Positions 32,402 through 36,059 of a DNA stretch of 64,000 nt are shown here, piece after piece. The stretch lies in NCBI GenBank assembly GCA_903924205.1, contig CAIYAP010000002.1, positions 372,001-436,000 of the forward strand, given 5' to 3'. The notes under the pieces were generated by a model. It saw only the letters and a program-made list of their open reading frames with translations, was not told where the DNA came from and did not search any database. This stretch comes from an uncultured Actinomycetes bacterium. Lineage in GTDB: Bacteria > Actinomycetota > Acidimicrobiia > Acidimicrobiales > RAAP-2. Each line of letters begins with the position of its first letter. The first letter of the stretch is position 1. The translations under genes were made by a program, and so were the position numbers.

Positions 32402-33003
32402 TTATTCAGCGTGAGGCGGCCTTCGACCGCTCGCGCCAAGGTCACCGCGTCGGCAAACTCCACGTCGCCACCCACCGGCAAACCCGCCGCGGGCTGTGAC
32501 ACGACGAGATTCGGCACATCGAGCAGGCGTGCCAGTTGCAATGCAGTGGCGTCGCCCTCGACGGTGGGGCTGAGACACAAAATAACTTCCTTGACGTCCG
32601 ACGACTTCACGCGTTGCAGCAGTTCGCGAATCTTGAGGCTCTCGAGGGTGACGCCCGACAGCGGATCGAGCAATCCGCCGAGCACGTGATATTGACCGTG
32701 GAAGGCCCCGGTGGCTTCCACCGCCCCCAAGGCTGGGGTGTCCTCCACCACGCAAATAATGCTGCGGTCTCGTCGATCGTCCGAGCACATGCGACACGAG
32801 CCGGCGTCATCGGTGACGTTGAAACACACGTCACACAGAGTCAGGGTATCGGCCATGTGCACAATGCTCTGGGCGAGGCGATCAATATCGTGGCGGTCTT
32901 GACGCATGAGCCACAGGGCCATGCGCGTGGCGGATTTGGGGCCGACGCCGGGCAGACGACCAAGTTCGTCAATCACGCTCTGCAGTGAGAGGGGGTAATT
33001 CAT
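32398..33003 (-). CDS. recR: Recombination protein RecR
   Basis: 201 aa; part of RecFOR, loads RecA at gaps. Helix-hairpin-helix LPGVGPKSATRMALWL, a four-Cys zinc finger CDVCFNVTDDAGSCRMC, and a Toprim domain starting IICVVEDTPALGAVEATG. The C-terminal Walker-B-like part is AAGLPVGGDVEFADAVTL. Its ATG shares one base with the dnaX stop (TGATG, 33005-33001). The ybaB/ebfC gene normally found between dnaX and recR is missing. Confidence 0.96.
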   Translation of the reverse strand: MNYPLSLQSVIDELGRLPGVGPKSATRMALWLMRQDRHDIDRLAQSIVHMADTLTLCDVCFNVTDDAGSCRMCSDDRRDRSIICVVEDTPALGAVEATGAFHGQYHVLGGLLDPLSGVTLESLKIRELLQRVKSSDVKEVILCLSPTVEGDATALQLARLLDVPNLVVSQPAAGLPVGGDVEFADAVTLARAVEGRLTLNN

Positions 33004-34694
33004 CAGAGTTCAGTAGCGCCTGGGAACTGATCGAGGATAGAACTCTCGGTGACCGAGTCACCCTCCATGGTGATGGCGGTCTCCTCGAAAACTTCGTCCT
33101 CGTGTGCACCCTCAATGATGGTGATCGAGGAGGTGTCGATGATGGGTGCGTCGGTCACGGTGGGGGCGAGGTCGGCATTGACCACCACCTCGAGACTGAG
33201 GTGCGCACCGGTCTTGACGCGTAGCGAACCGATGATGGCCCCCGCCACGTCGAGCAGATTTTTCTTGGCGAGCTCGGAGCGCACCGCCACCACCAAGGTG
33301 TCACCGCGCAGCTCGGTAGCGGTGGCTCCCGCGAGAACGGCGCTCACGCTGCGCGCCACTGGTAAGCCGCTAGCCAATGCCGCCTGCACGCCGGCCAGCG
33401 TGACGGTGGTGGGGGCAGAAGCCACCACTTCGTCGGTGACGATGGGCTGAGGGCGAGGAGCCCCCGTGGCCGCGTCGCGAGCGGCGGGGGCGGCAGGAAC
33501 GACCGCGGGGGCCGGAGACTCAGCAGGTCGACGGGTCGCACCAATCTTGGGCAAGGGAGCGGTGGGTGCCGCCACCGGACCACTGGCGATTTTGCGCTCC
33601 AGTGACGTGAGACGCTCAGCGAGAGCCGCGACGTTGTCGTCCAATTCGGGGTGAGTGAGGCGAGCGAGATTCACTTCCAGCACAATCGTCGCGTCCACGG
33701 ACTGATTCATGTCGCGAGCGGATCGACCAATGGTCTCCATGATGCGCACGGTTTTCGGCAGACCGAGTCGCTGACCCCAGACGGCGAGACGTTCGCGTTC
33801 GCCGCCAAAGGCATCGGCAATGTCGGGCGACACCATGAGCAAGAACACTTGGCGCATCTCATTGACGAGACGCTCAGCCACTTCGCGCGCCTCTTCACCC
33901 GAGCGAATGAGGGCGGCGAGGCTGGCGATGGCGCCGGGTGCGTCGTTGGTTGCGAGTGCCTCGAGCAGGGGATCGAGATTGCCGAGACCGTCACCCACGA
34001 ATCCGGCGGCCACGTAGCGATCAAGGGCCGAGAGCGCATCACGCGCCGAGCCCTTGCCGTCGCGCAGCGCGGCGTCGATAATGTCCTCACCGACCTCCAG
34101 CGCGGCCTTCTCACGCACATCAACGAGGAGATCGCGCATGACGTCGGGAGCAAGTAAACGAAATTCCAGGTGCTGGGTGCGTGAACGCACGGTCGGCAAT
34201 ACCTTGTGGGGATCAGTCGTCGCGAGCACGAACACCACGTGCGGCGGGGTCTCCTCGAGCGTTTTCAGCAAGGCGTAGTTAGCCTTGTCCGACAGGGCGT
34301 GGACCTCGTCGATGATGTACACCTTGGTGCGGCCACCGGTGCCCATCCACACCCCTTCGAGCAAGTCGCGAATGTCGTCGACACCGCTGTTGCTCGCGGC
34401 GTCGAGTTCGACCACATCAAAGCTGGTGCCCTGGGTAATCGAGATGCAGCTCGCGCAGGCGTTACAGGGGTCACCCTCATGTAAGACCTCGCAGTTCAGC
34501 GCTTTGGCCAAAATGCGGGCGGTTGATGTTTTACCGGTGCCACGGGGCCCCGAGAAGAGGTAGGCATTAACGACGCGATCTTTAGCCACGGCATTACGAA
34601 GAGCCGAGACGACGTGTTCTTGACCTCGGATTTCGCTGAAGCGTCCGGGCCGGAATCGGCGGTAGAGAGTGACGGGTCCGTCGTAAGTAGCCAC
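33003..34694 (-). CDS. dnaX: DNA polymerase III subunit gamma/tau
   Basis: 563 aa clamp-loader ATPase. Walker A is SGPRGTGKTSTARILA, the zinc module is CEVLHEGDPCNACASC, and Walker B is VYIIDEVHAL. The clamp-loader Arg/sensor region reads VRSRTQHLEFRLL. Domains I-III end near residue 365, followed by a Pro/Ala-rich linker and a tau-like C-terminal part of about 150 residues. No obvious A-rich frameshift site was seen, so a single product is expected. GTG at 34694 has TAGTCT (34706-34701) 6 nt upstream. It lies directly downstream of ffs. Confidence 0.95.
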   Translation of the reverse strand: MATYDGPVTLYRRFRPGRFSEIRGQEHVVSALRNAVAKDRVVNAYLFSGPRGTGKTSTARILAKALNCEVLHEGDPCNACASCISITQGTSFDVVELDAASNSGVDDIRDLLEGVWMGTGGRTKVYIIDEVHALSDKANYALLKTLEETPPHVVFVLATTDPHKVLPTVRSRTQHLEFRLLAPDVMRDLLVDVREKAALEVGEDIIDAALRDGKGSARDALSALDRYVAAGFVGDGLGNLDPLLEALATNDAPGAIASLAALIRSGEEAREVAERLVNEMRQVFLLMVSPDIADAFGGERERLAVWGQRLGLPKTVRIMETIGRSARDMNQSVDATIVLEVNLARLTHPELDDNVAALAERLTSLERKIASGPVAAPTAPLPKIGATRRPAESPAPAVVPAAPAARDAATGAPRPQPIVTDEVVASAPTTVTLAGVQAALASGLPVARSVSAVLAGATATELRGDTLVVAVRSELAKKNLLDVAGAIIGSLRVKTGAHLSLEVVVNADLAPTVTDAPIIDTSSITIIEGAHEDEVFEETAITMEGDSVTESSILDQFPGATEL

Positions 34695-34723
34695 GGGGCG
34701 AGACTACCGGCGAAGTGTGTCGT

Positions 34724-34859
34724 GGTTCGAAGTCCACAGCGATGGCCAGGCGATCTACGGCACCCGGCGCAACCCGCTGAGAGCTGCTGGCTTCCGCCCC
34801 TGACTCGGTTCACAAGTGGCCGTCGCGTAGGACCCGACCACCGCTGTGGACCTCGAACC
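34724..34859 (-). ncRNA. ffs: Signal recognition particle RNA (4.5S type)
   Basis: About 136 nt in the gap between dnaX and tRNA-Ser. The ends form a long stem: GGTTCGAGGTCCACAGCG at the 5' end pairs with CGCTGTGGACTTCGAACC at the 3' end with one bulge. The apical domain IV core lies at 34804-34783 on the minus strand: GTCAGG on one side, a GGAA tetraloop and AGCAGC on the other, as required for Ffh binding. A TATTCT box ends 6 nt before the 5' end. Linkage of ffs to dnaX is common in Gram-positive bacteria. Confidence 0.88.
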
Positions 34860-34865
34860 GTCTTC

Positions 34866-34871
34866 AGAATA
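34866..34871 (-). promoter_or_regulatory. -10 box of ffs
   Basis: TATTCT on the minus strand, 6 nt before the first base of the SRP RNA stem (34859). The spacing matches that seen before many start codons and tRNA 5' ends in this window, and so gives a useful calibration of box-to-start distance. Confidence 0.6.
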
Positions 34872-34906
34872 GCCCTCTGTCGAAAGTGCCTCCGTCGGAG
34901 GTTCGG

Positions 34907-34912
34907 TAAGAT
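34907..34912 (+). promoter_or_regulatory. -10 box of tRNA-Ser(GGA)
   Basis: TAAGAT followed by 7 nt and then tRNA position 1 at 34920. Transcription should begin at or very near the mature 5' end. Confidence 0.55.
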
Positions 34913-34919
34913 GAGAGGT

Positions 34920-35004
34920 GGAAGTGTGCGAGAGCGGCCGAACCGGCACGCTTGGAAAGCGTGTGACCTTCACGGGTCCGTGGGTTCGAATCCCACCACT
35001 TCCG
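34920..35004 (+). tRNA. tRNA-Ser (GGA anticodon), CCA encoded
   Basis: 85-nt class II cloverleaf with a long variable arm. Acceptor GGAAGTG pairs with CACTTCC, the anticodon loop TTGGAAA gives GGA, and the discriminator is G. CCA is encoded at 35005-35007. It stands alone, divergent from ffs. Confidence 0.97.
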
Positions 35005-35046
35005 CCAGTCAGCGGCGCCGTCACGGTGCCGGCCTAGCCTTCGGGC

Positions 35047-35142
35047 ATGTTCAACCGTCTACAGCTAGCGGTCGGCCCCGTCATCGCGGTGGTGCTGTGG
35101 ATCGCGTTTCGCTGGTGGGCCAGTCACCATAGTCAACACTGA
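35047..35142 (+). CDS. Small single-pass membrane protein
   Basis: 31-aa reading frame with one hydrophobic helix (LAVGPVIAVVLWIAF) followed by RWWASHHSQH. Size alone would not justify a call. However, TAGCCT (35035-35040) sits exactly 6 nt before the ATG, the same arrangement as at proven neighbours such as tadA and uppP. Function unknown. It ends 35 nt before tadA. Confidence 0.5.
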   Translation: MFNRLQLAVGPVIAVVLWIAFRWWASHHSQH

Positions 35143-35177
35143 GGGAGAGCACCGGATGGTCTGCGTAGGCTGACCGC

Positions 35178-35639
35178 GTGTCAACGTCCGACCTCGACTT
35201 CATGCGCGTGGCCCTCGAGCAGGCGCAGCACTGCCTCGGCCACAATGACGTGCCCGTCGGTGCGGTGGTGGTGGTTGATGGTGTCATTATCGCCACGGGG
35301 GAAAATCGTCGCGAAGTGGACCGCGATCCCACCGCCCACGCGGAAATAGTTGCCTTGCGGCGAGCCGCGGAAATGGTCGGGCAATGGCGCCTCAGCGACG
35401 CCACCGTCTACGTGACCTTGGAGCCCTGCGTCATGTGTGCGGGTGCCCTGCTCAATGCTCGCGTGGCTCGTGTGGTGATGGGGGCGACCGACCTCAAGGC
35501 CGGTGCCGTGGGCTCTCGCTACAACCTCTTGACCGACCCGCGTCTGATGCACGAGCCCGAACTCAGCTACGACGTCCTTGCGGATGCCTGCGCAGAGCTG
35601 CTGACCGACTTCTTTGAGCAGCGACGGCCCAAAAATTGA
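35178..35639 (+). CDS. tadA: tRNA-specific adenosine deaminase
   Basis: 153 aa; converts A34 to inosine in tRNA-Arg(ACG). The zinc site is His54-Ala-Glu56 (AHAEIVALR) and Cys84/Cys87 (LEPCVMCAGALL). NDVPVGAVVV and the RYNLLTDPRL segment are typical. The GTG at 35178 is 6 nt after TAGGCT (35166-35171), indicating a leaderless mRNA. It lies between two tRNA-Ser genes, a frequent location for tadA in actinobacteria. Confidence 0.94.
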   Translation: MSTSDLDFMRVALEQAQHCLGHNDVPVGAVVVVDGVIIATGENRREVDRDPTAHAEIVALRRAAEMVGQWRLSDATVYVTLEPCVMCAGALLNARVARVVMGATDLKAGAVGSRYNLLTDPRLMHEPELSYDVLADACAELLTDFFEQRRPKN

Positions 35640-35655
35640 CTTATTCGAGAGCCAC

Positions 35656-35661
35656 TAGAGT
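35656..35661 (+). promoter_or_regulatory. -10 box of tRNA-Ser(CGA)
   Basis: TAGAGT, 7 nt before tRNA position 1 (35669). Same geometry as the other tRNA-Ser gene and tRNA-Tyr. Confidence 0.55.
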
Positions 35662-35668
35662 TGCTCTC

Positions 35669-35753
35669 GGACAGGTGCTAGAGCGGCCGAATAGGACGGT
35701 CTCGAAAACCGTTGTGGTGCAAGCCACCGTGGGTTCAAATCCCACCCTGTCCG
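35669..35753 (+). tRNA. tRNA-Ser (CGA anticodon), CCA encoded
   Basis: 85-nt class II cloverleaf. Acceptor GGACAGG pairs with CCTGTCC, the anticodon loop CTCGAAA gives CGA, and the discriminator is G. CCA is encoded at 35754-35756. It follows tadA by 29 nt. Confidence 0.97.
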
Positions 35754-35897
35754 CCACCAGGCAAATACAGAAATAGGCGGTTCGGAGATACAAAAGTCCG
35801 AATCTGATCAATTTCTGCGAGTTCGATGGGTTGGATCTCCAACTTCGTCGAGTGAGCGCGGTGCAGTGGTGCCGTGGTAGGAGTCGTTAGACGAAGA

Positions 35898-35935
35898 GAA
35901 CCCCCGCTGGGCCGTGAAAGGTCCAGCGGGGGTTC
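35898..35935. terminator. Hairpin between tRNA-Ser and GH130 gene
   Basis: Perfect 13-bp repeat 35898-35910 / 35923-35935, 12-nt loop. On the minus strand the stem is followed by TCTTC, so it probably terminates the GH130 operon. The 303-bp gap 35757-36059 also holds a 9-bp perfect hairpin at 35996-36020. I see no gene in it. Confidence 0.6.
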
Positions 35936-36059
35936 GTTGTGGTGTGGCGATGTGGTGTCACGTCCCCCGCGGTGGGCACCACCTCACCTACTCGGACTCG
36001 CCGGTCGCACCCCGGCGAGTGGTTGGTCACTGCGAGGCTGGCGGGCGGTGGACGACTCG

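Follow-up and report, generated by a model that had tools for sequence, protein, structure and literature searches.

The locus considered here raises the question of whether a bacterium that possesses RNase P can produce some of its tRNAs without using it. To our knowledge, RNase P is generally taken to make tRNA 5' ends wherever the enzyme exists. In the window (i.e., the whole 64,000-nucleotide stretch of DNA analysed here, bases 372001-436000 of one contig in a 1.66 Mb, 97.5% complete assembly of seven contigs), tRNA-Ser(GGA) and tRNA-Ser(CGA) each have a -10 box so close to the mature RNA that RNA polymerase probably starts at base G1 of both genes, and the primary transcript would then begin with the mature 5' end. 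The same genome encodes RNase P RNA (RF00010 match, 222.3 bits).

The features of the locus are collected in Table 1. The gene order is as follows: an ORF which we take to be dnaX-like, ffs (minus strand), tRNA-Ser(GGA), tadA and tRNA-Ser(CGA).

Table 1. Features of the tRNA-Ser/ffs locus, in positions of the window.
Feature	Position	Strand	Remarks
dnaX-like ORF (presumed)	33003-34694	-	adjoins ffs
SRP RNA (ffs)	34724..34859	-	Rfam small SRP RNA core 34741-34839 within longer closed helix from G34859
-10 box TATTCT of SRP RNA	34866..34871	-	ends 6 nt before helix
-10 box TAAGAT	34907..34912	+	ends 7 nt before tRNA-Ser(GGA); T at -1
tRNA-Ser(GGA)	34920..35007	+	ARAGORN; CCA encoded; predicted transcription start G34920
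tadA, tRNA adenosine(34) deaminase	35178..35639	+	NCBIfam equivalog; stop codon 29 nt before tRNA-Ser(CGA)
-10 box TAGAGT	35656..35661	+	ends 7 nt before tRNA-Ser(CGA); C at -1
tRNA-Ser(CGA)	35669..35756	+	ARAGORN; CCA encoded; predicted transcription start G35669

The spacings given in the preliminary description are borne out by the sequence and by ARAGORN for both tRNA genes and, when the distance is counted to the closing helix at G34859, for the SRP RNA as well. TAAGAT and TAGAGT both fit the actinobacterial vegetative (sigma-A type) -10 pattern TANNNT. Between positions 34600 and 36000, no TTGACA/TATAAT consensus pair was found, this being the sole -35 model scanned. According to the accessible parts of two start-site studies, the -35 box is weakly conserved in Corynebacterium glutamicum (PMC3890552) and Mycobacterium tuberculosis has no conserved -35 motif (PMC3898074) and, in consequence, a -35 box is not strictly defining for promoters of this kind.

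Two side observations concern the surrounding DNA. A perfect inverted repeat (CCTCC-GTC-GGAGG, 34889-34901) separates the -10 boxes of the divergently transcribed ffs and tRNA-Ser(GGA), covering the expected -35 site of the former and flanking that of the latter; it could serve as an operator or as a promoter element common to both genes, and the window has one such site versus 0.30 expected with one mismatch, for a pattern picked post hoc. On the 3' side of tRNA-Ser(CGA), a G/C-rich inverted repeat (aacccccgctgg/ccagcgggggtt, 35899-35934) was recognized by eye and is absent from the output of the terminator scan.

In order to read a spacing as a start site, a ruler is needed. Leaderless mRNAs can serve as an internal one, since their transcription begins at the start codon itself, and they appear to be common in this genome (stretches L320-L339 together with the window). 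Over 464 kb of this genome, TANNNT precedes candidate ATG or GTG codons with a gap (the distance from the box to the first base) of 6, 7 or 8 nt in 56, 36 and 15 cases, respectively, versus 3.2, 3.4 and 2.1 expected, i.e., 107 cases versus about 9; at gaps 0-5, no excess of TANNNT was found in those 464 kb. The ruler peaks at gap 6-8 and, therefore, a tRNA gene with gap 7 is predicted to be transcribed from base 1, in agreement with the statement of the preliminary description that this is the normal distance between a -10 box and its start site. At gaps 6, 7 and 8, the counts in a further genome, G072, were 11, 12 and 6 versus about 1 expected each; those of Streptomyces were just 5, 1 and 1, versus under 1 expected each. 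Both tRNA-Ser genes of the window also show the base pattern expected of leaderless genes, with a purine at base 1 and a pyrimidine before it.

The analysis covered each of the 45 tRNA genes identified in the genome; four of them follow another tRNA, which leaves 41 non-operonic units. TANNNT ends 6-13 nt upstream in 31 of these 41 units; when the bases of the upstream sequences were shuffled 2000 times, the number averaged 2.9 and never exceeded 9. From gap 6 to gap 13, the units number 1, 4, 2, 2, 11, 8, 2 and 1. The preliminary description had looked to a genome-wide peak at 6-8 nt and had named its absence as evidence against leaderless tRNAs; for the genome as a whole that absence is what the scan found, because the peak lies at 10-11 nt (19/41) and only 7/41 units fall at gap 6-8. 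Leaderlessness of the tRNAs genome-wide is thus rejected. The 24 units at gap 9-13 would be transcribed with a short leader that RNase P has to remove; the remaining ten comprise five whose box lies at 26-45 nt and five that lack one within 60 nt. Overall, the genome seems to use very short tRNA leaders, with the seven genes at gap 6-8 (Ser GGA, Ser CGA, Ser TGA, Tyr, Lys CTT, Arg ACG and Arg TCT) representing the short end of the distribution.

The composition of this short end was then compared among genomes. The units at gap 6-8 are (i) 5/41 in a genome of the same genus, G215 (Ser CGA, Ser TGA, Tyr, Lys CTT and Arg TCT); (ii) 3/40 in one of the same order, G031 (Ser CGA, Ser TGA and Arg TCT); (iii) 4/36 in G072 (Ser GGA, Ser TGA, Lys TTT and one Met, with one Leu at 5); and (iv) 2/50 in Streptomyces, both of them Ser (CGA and GGA). 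From the sets of G215 and G031, the Tyr, Lys and Arg cases are common to the genus and mostly do not extend beyond it. In a Yersinia control, 1/21 units was at gap 6-8, those 21 units being part of 74 tRNA matches. A second control, Val(TAC), consisted of 28 distinct genes from 30 loci, mostly of Streptomyces and one other family, and 15 of them lie behind another tRNA: none of the 13 non-operonic genes is at gap 6-8 (11/13 have a box, at 10-19 nt), and 3/15 of those behind another tRNA have a box at 7-8 nt, two of the three being alike in the stretch shown. The Ser(CGA) pattern was matched in 2/150 genomes of the phylum of Yersinia, too few to serve as a control.

The spacing of tRNA-Ser(CGA) is kept in most of the genes read from the phylum. 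Ser(CGA) genes were gathered from TadA relatives of named genomes (80 loci kept), from a pattern search in 296 genomes of the phylum (57 matches, spread over 56 genomes; 50 of the loci were read) and from further searches, which altogether provided 74 distinct Actinomycetota genes; 240 of the 296 genomes gave no pattern match, so that this search contributes counts from the matching genomes only. The gap is 7 in 51/74 genes and 6-8 in 62/74 (background per position, 0.43); for genes from outside the phylum, the corresponding values are 0/10 and 1/10. The pattern sample alone gives 36/50 and 42/50, and in this sample 16/24 families have at least one gene at gap 6-8. At gap 7, the six bases between the box and position -1 are poorly conserved (0.06-0.56 bits) and position -1 is C in 96% of the genes. 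Among the 12 genes with no box at 6-8 nt, two come from the order of the window (gaps 34 and 15), and several of the genomes concerned look AT-rich by eye. The genes behind these counts, and behind those given below for five genomes (three of which belong to one order), are related, and no correction was made for kinship.

The other serine tRNAs behave differently. In the phylum, Ser(GGA) is at gap 6-8 in 7/20 genes, Ser(TGA) in 3/8 and Ser(GCT) in 0/4 (all loci); in the five genomes read, Ser(GGA) is so placed in 3/5 and Ser(GCT) in none, and Ser(TGA) of Streptomyces is at 10. A single rule for all Ser isoacceptors was rejected on the basis of the spacings of Ser(GCT), Ser(GGA) and Ser(TGA). 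The proposal of the preliminary description, that both tRNA-Ser are made with a mature 5' end, hence fares unevenly: the spacing on which it depends is kept by Ser(CGA) but not by Ser(GGA) in G215 and G031, where the latter has gaps of 34 and 15 nt. In the majority of the relatives read, the box of Ser(CGA) keeps the position from which transcription is predicted to begin at base 1, and trimming by RNase P may be unneeded for this tRNA.

Pairing between base -1 and base 73 (N-1:N73) disturbs RNase P. It was scored in 237 tRNAs of five genomes, the expectation being derived from 5000 permutations of the -1 bases within each class. Watson-Crick pairs occur in 7/77 units at gap 9-13 versus 21.0 expected (none of the 5000 permutations was as low, at the printed precision) and in 14/21 units at gap 6-8 versus 10.9 expected (P 0.075 for an excess), including 4/10 of those outside Ser. 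One reading of this is that base -1 is transcribed and constrained at gap 9-13 and untranscribed at gap 6-8. The argument is weakened because avoidance is slight where base -1 should be transcribed, i.e., in units with a distant box or none (20/110 versus 26.5 expected, P 0.07) and in units behind another tRNA (5/29 versus 8.2 expected, P 0.10). Within the Ser genes of the five genomes, all of which have G73, C stands at -1 in 10/11 at gap 6-8 and in 0/8 otherwise. The corresponding values are 68/72 versus 8/34 for 106 Ser genes of the phylum, and 9/10 versus 5/22 when CGA is left out, both comparisons being uncorrected for kinship. Outside the phylum, C is found at -1 in 5/10 Ser(CGA) genes, one of which has a box at 8.

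As regards ffs, folding it together with 45 nt of upstream sequence puts the beginning of its closing helix 20 nt ahead of the Rfam core, and the SRP RNA folded from G34859 has a z-score of -7.4. A crude search for helix ends in eight relatives gave three with a box (at 5, 7 and 7 nt) and five with none; since these helix ends are unreliable, no conservation is claimed for the spacing of the ffs box. As a side observation, a large SRP RNA lies near tRNA-Ser genes in two genomes of family f23 (L131 1800-2064; L132 889-1152), unlike the small SRP RNA of eight other relatives scanned.

Several explanations compete with a start at G1. Transcription might begin 1-3 nt upstream of it, leaving RNase P to trim a very short leader, as is predicted for most tRNAs of this genome; we consider this rather unlikely, though far from negligible. 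Gap 6 is the commonest spacing of the genome's own ruler and would place the start of a gap-7 tRNA at -1, although a pyrimidine occupies that position. In the accessible parts of the published maps, spacers range from 3 to 11 nt in C. glutamicum (PMC3890552) and the box of Propionibacterium acnes has its average centre at -9 (PMC3848588), closer to the start by about 1.5 nt than a box at gap 7 would be, so that a start 1-2 nt upstream of G1 would be allowed; as far as the accessible text goes, spacers are of 6-9 nt (mean 6.9) in Corynebacterium diphtheriae, with 91% purine starts (PMC5784534), and start sites of Mycobacterium smegmatis show a preference for G/A at +1 and for C at -1 (PMC6448022). 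Short leaders are, besides, the rule among the units of this genome (24/41 at gap 9-13), and with avoidance of N-1:N73 pairs being slight at distant boxes, its absence at gap 6-8 is no strong sign. The bases themselves speak against an upstream start: in 60 gap-7 Ser genes, a purine is found at +1 in 60/60, at -1 in 0/60 (it is always C or T) and at -2 in 37/60, and 23/60 have no purine at either upstream position. A start at -2 would, moreover, correspond to gap 5, at which leaderless mRNAs show no excess, and the strong avoidance of N-1:N73 pairs seen at gap 9-13 is missing at gap 6-8.

It is quite improbable that tRNA-Ser(CGA) comes mainly from the tadA transcript and is excised by RNase P, with its box as a minor or inactive promoter. 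The proximity of tadA, which ends 29 nt upstream on the same strand, and the co-transcription of eight tRNAs with protein genes described in the accessible part of the C. glutamicum map (PMC3890552) would suit such an origin. Nevertheless, the box is still at 6-7 nt in six loci where Ser(CGA) lies on the opposite strand from tadA (L049, L050, L052-L055) and at gap 7 in L051, where the two are more than 2 kb apart, and an inactive promoter would not be expected to keep an exact spacing. Finally, the boxes could be chance TANNNT matches in short intergenic DNA, given that the hexamer has three fixed bases only and that the consensus scan of 34600-36000 found no promoter with a -35 box; this is scarcely credible against 31/41 units with 2.9 expected and one exact spacing in 51/74 genes with 0.43 expected.

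A start at G1 has likenesses to known systems. Escherichia coli has short-leader pre-tRNAs whose cleavage by RNase P depends on RppH; they resemble the present case in having a 5' triphosphate near the tRNA and no more than a few nt of leader, but differ in that this leader does exist and is taken off by RNase P. The leaderless tRNAs of Nanoarchaeum equitans, an archaeon without RNase P according to the accessible part of the source (PMC10941002), share the predicted transcription from the first base with no 5' leader. In contrast to that archaeon, RNase P RNA is present here, other tRNAs still need the enzyme and only some tRNAs are affected, so that neither mark of an RNase P-free system of the Nanoarchaeum type (no RNase P; all tRNAs leaderless) is found in this genome. 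The leaderless mRNAs of Actinomycetota, common in M. tuberculosis as far as the accessible text tells (PMC3898074), have the same promoter geometry, with TANNNT placed 6-8 nt ahead of the first functional base; the product here is instead a tRNA and the consequence thus concerns RNA processing, not translation.

No report of leaderless bacterial tRNA-Ser was found in a literature search from which subscription papers largely fell out of scope, as did an older report on Streptomyces tRNA promoters. In the accessible parts of three start-site maps, rRNA/tRNA starts were set aside before analysis: 202 in C. glutamicum (PMC3890552), 21 in C. diphtheriae (PMC5784534) and 85 in Streptomyces lividans (PMC8079986). 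The accessible text for Streptomyces coelicolor describes tRNAs as made with 5' and 3' segments for removal (PMC4681348) and that for P. acnes ascribes mature tRNA 5' ends in dRNA-seq to RNase P (PMC3848588), with no exception discussed in either.

With a start at G1 of both tRNA-Ser genes as the preferred reading, the TANNNT promoter would be placed for RNA polymerase to begin at the first base of the tRNA, and the primary transcript would have a mature 5' end bearing a triphosphate; with this predicted start, no RNase P cut would be needed at that end. A pyrophosphohydrolase could yield the monophosphate, or the triphosphate could be tolerated. Start site, 5' chemistry and independence from RNase P are here predicted from DNA sequence. 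Most other tRNAs of the genome would still need the enzyme, and transcripts running on from tadA could supply further Ser(CGA) precursors that depend on it. The geometry of Ser(CGA) may be fixed in place: initiation favours C at -1, and this C, if transcribed, would pair with G73 and disturb RNase P; hence, the start site could not easily shift upstream. We lean slightly towards the wider proposal that Ser(CGA) is leaderless and RNase P-independent in much of a phylum that keeps RNase P, held so by C-1/G73, and that the lineage of the window added Ser(GGA), Ser(TGA), Tyr, Lys and Arg. If true, tRNAs that bypass an RNase P which is present would provide a natural test of the purpose of that step, and they would raise the matter of how the cell handles a 5' triphosphate on a tRNA.
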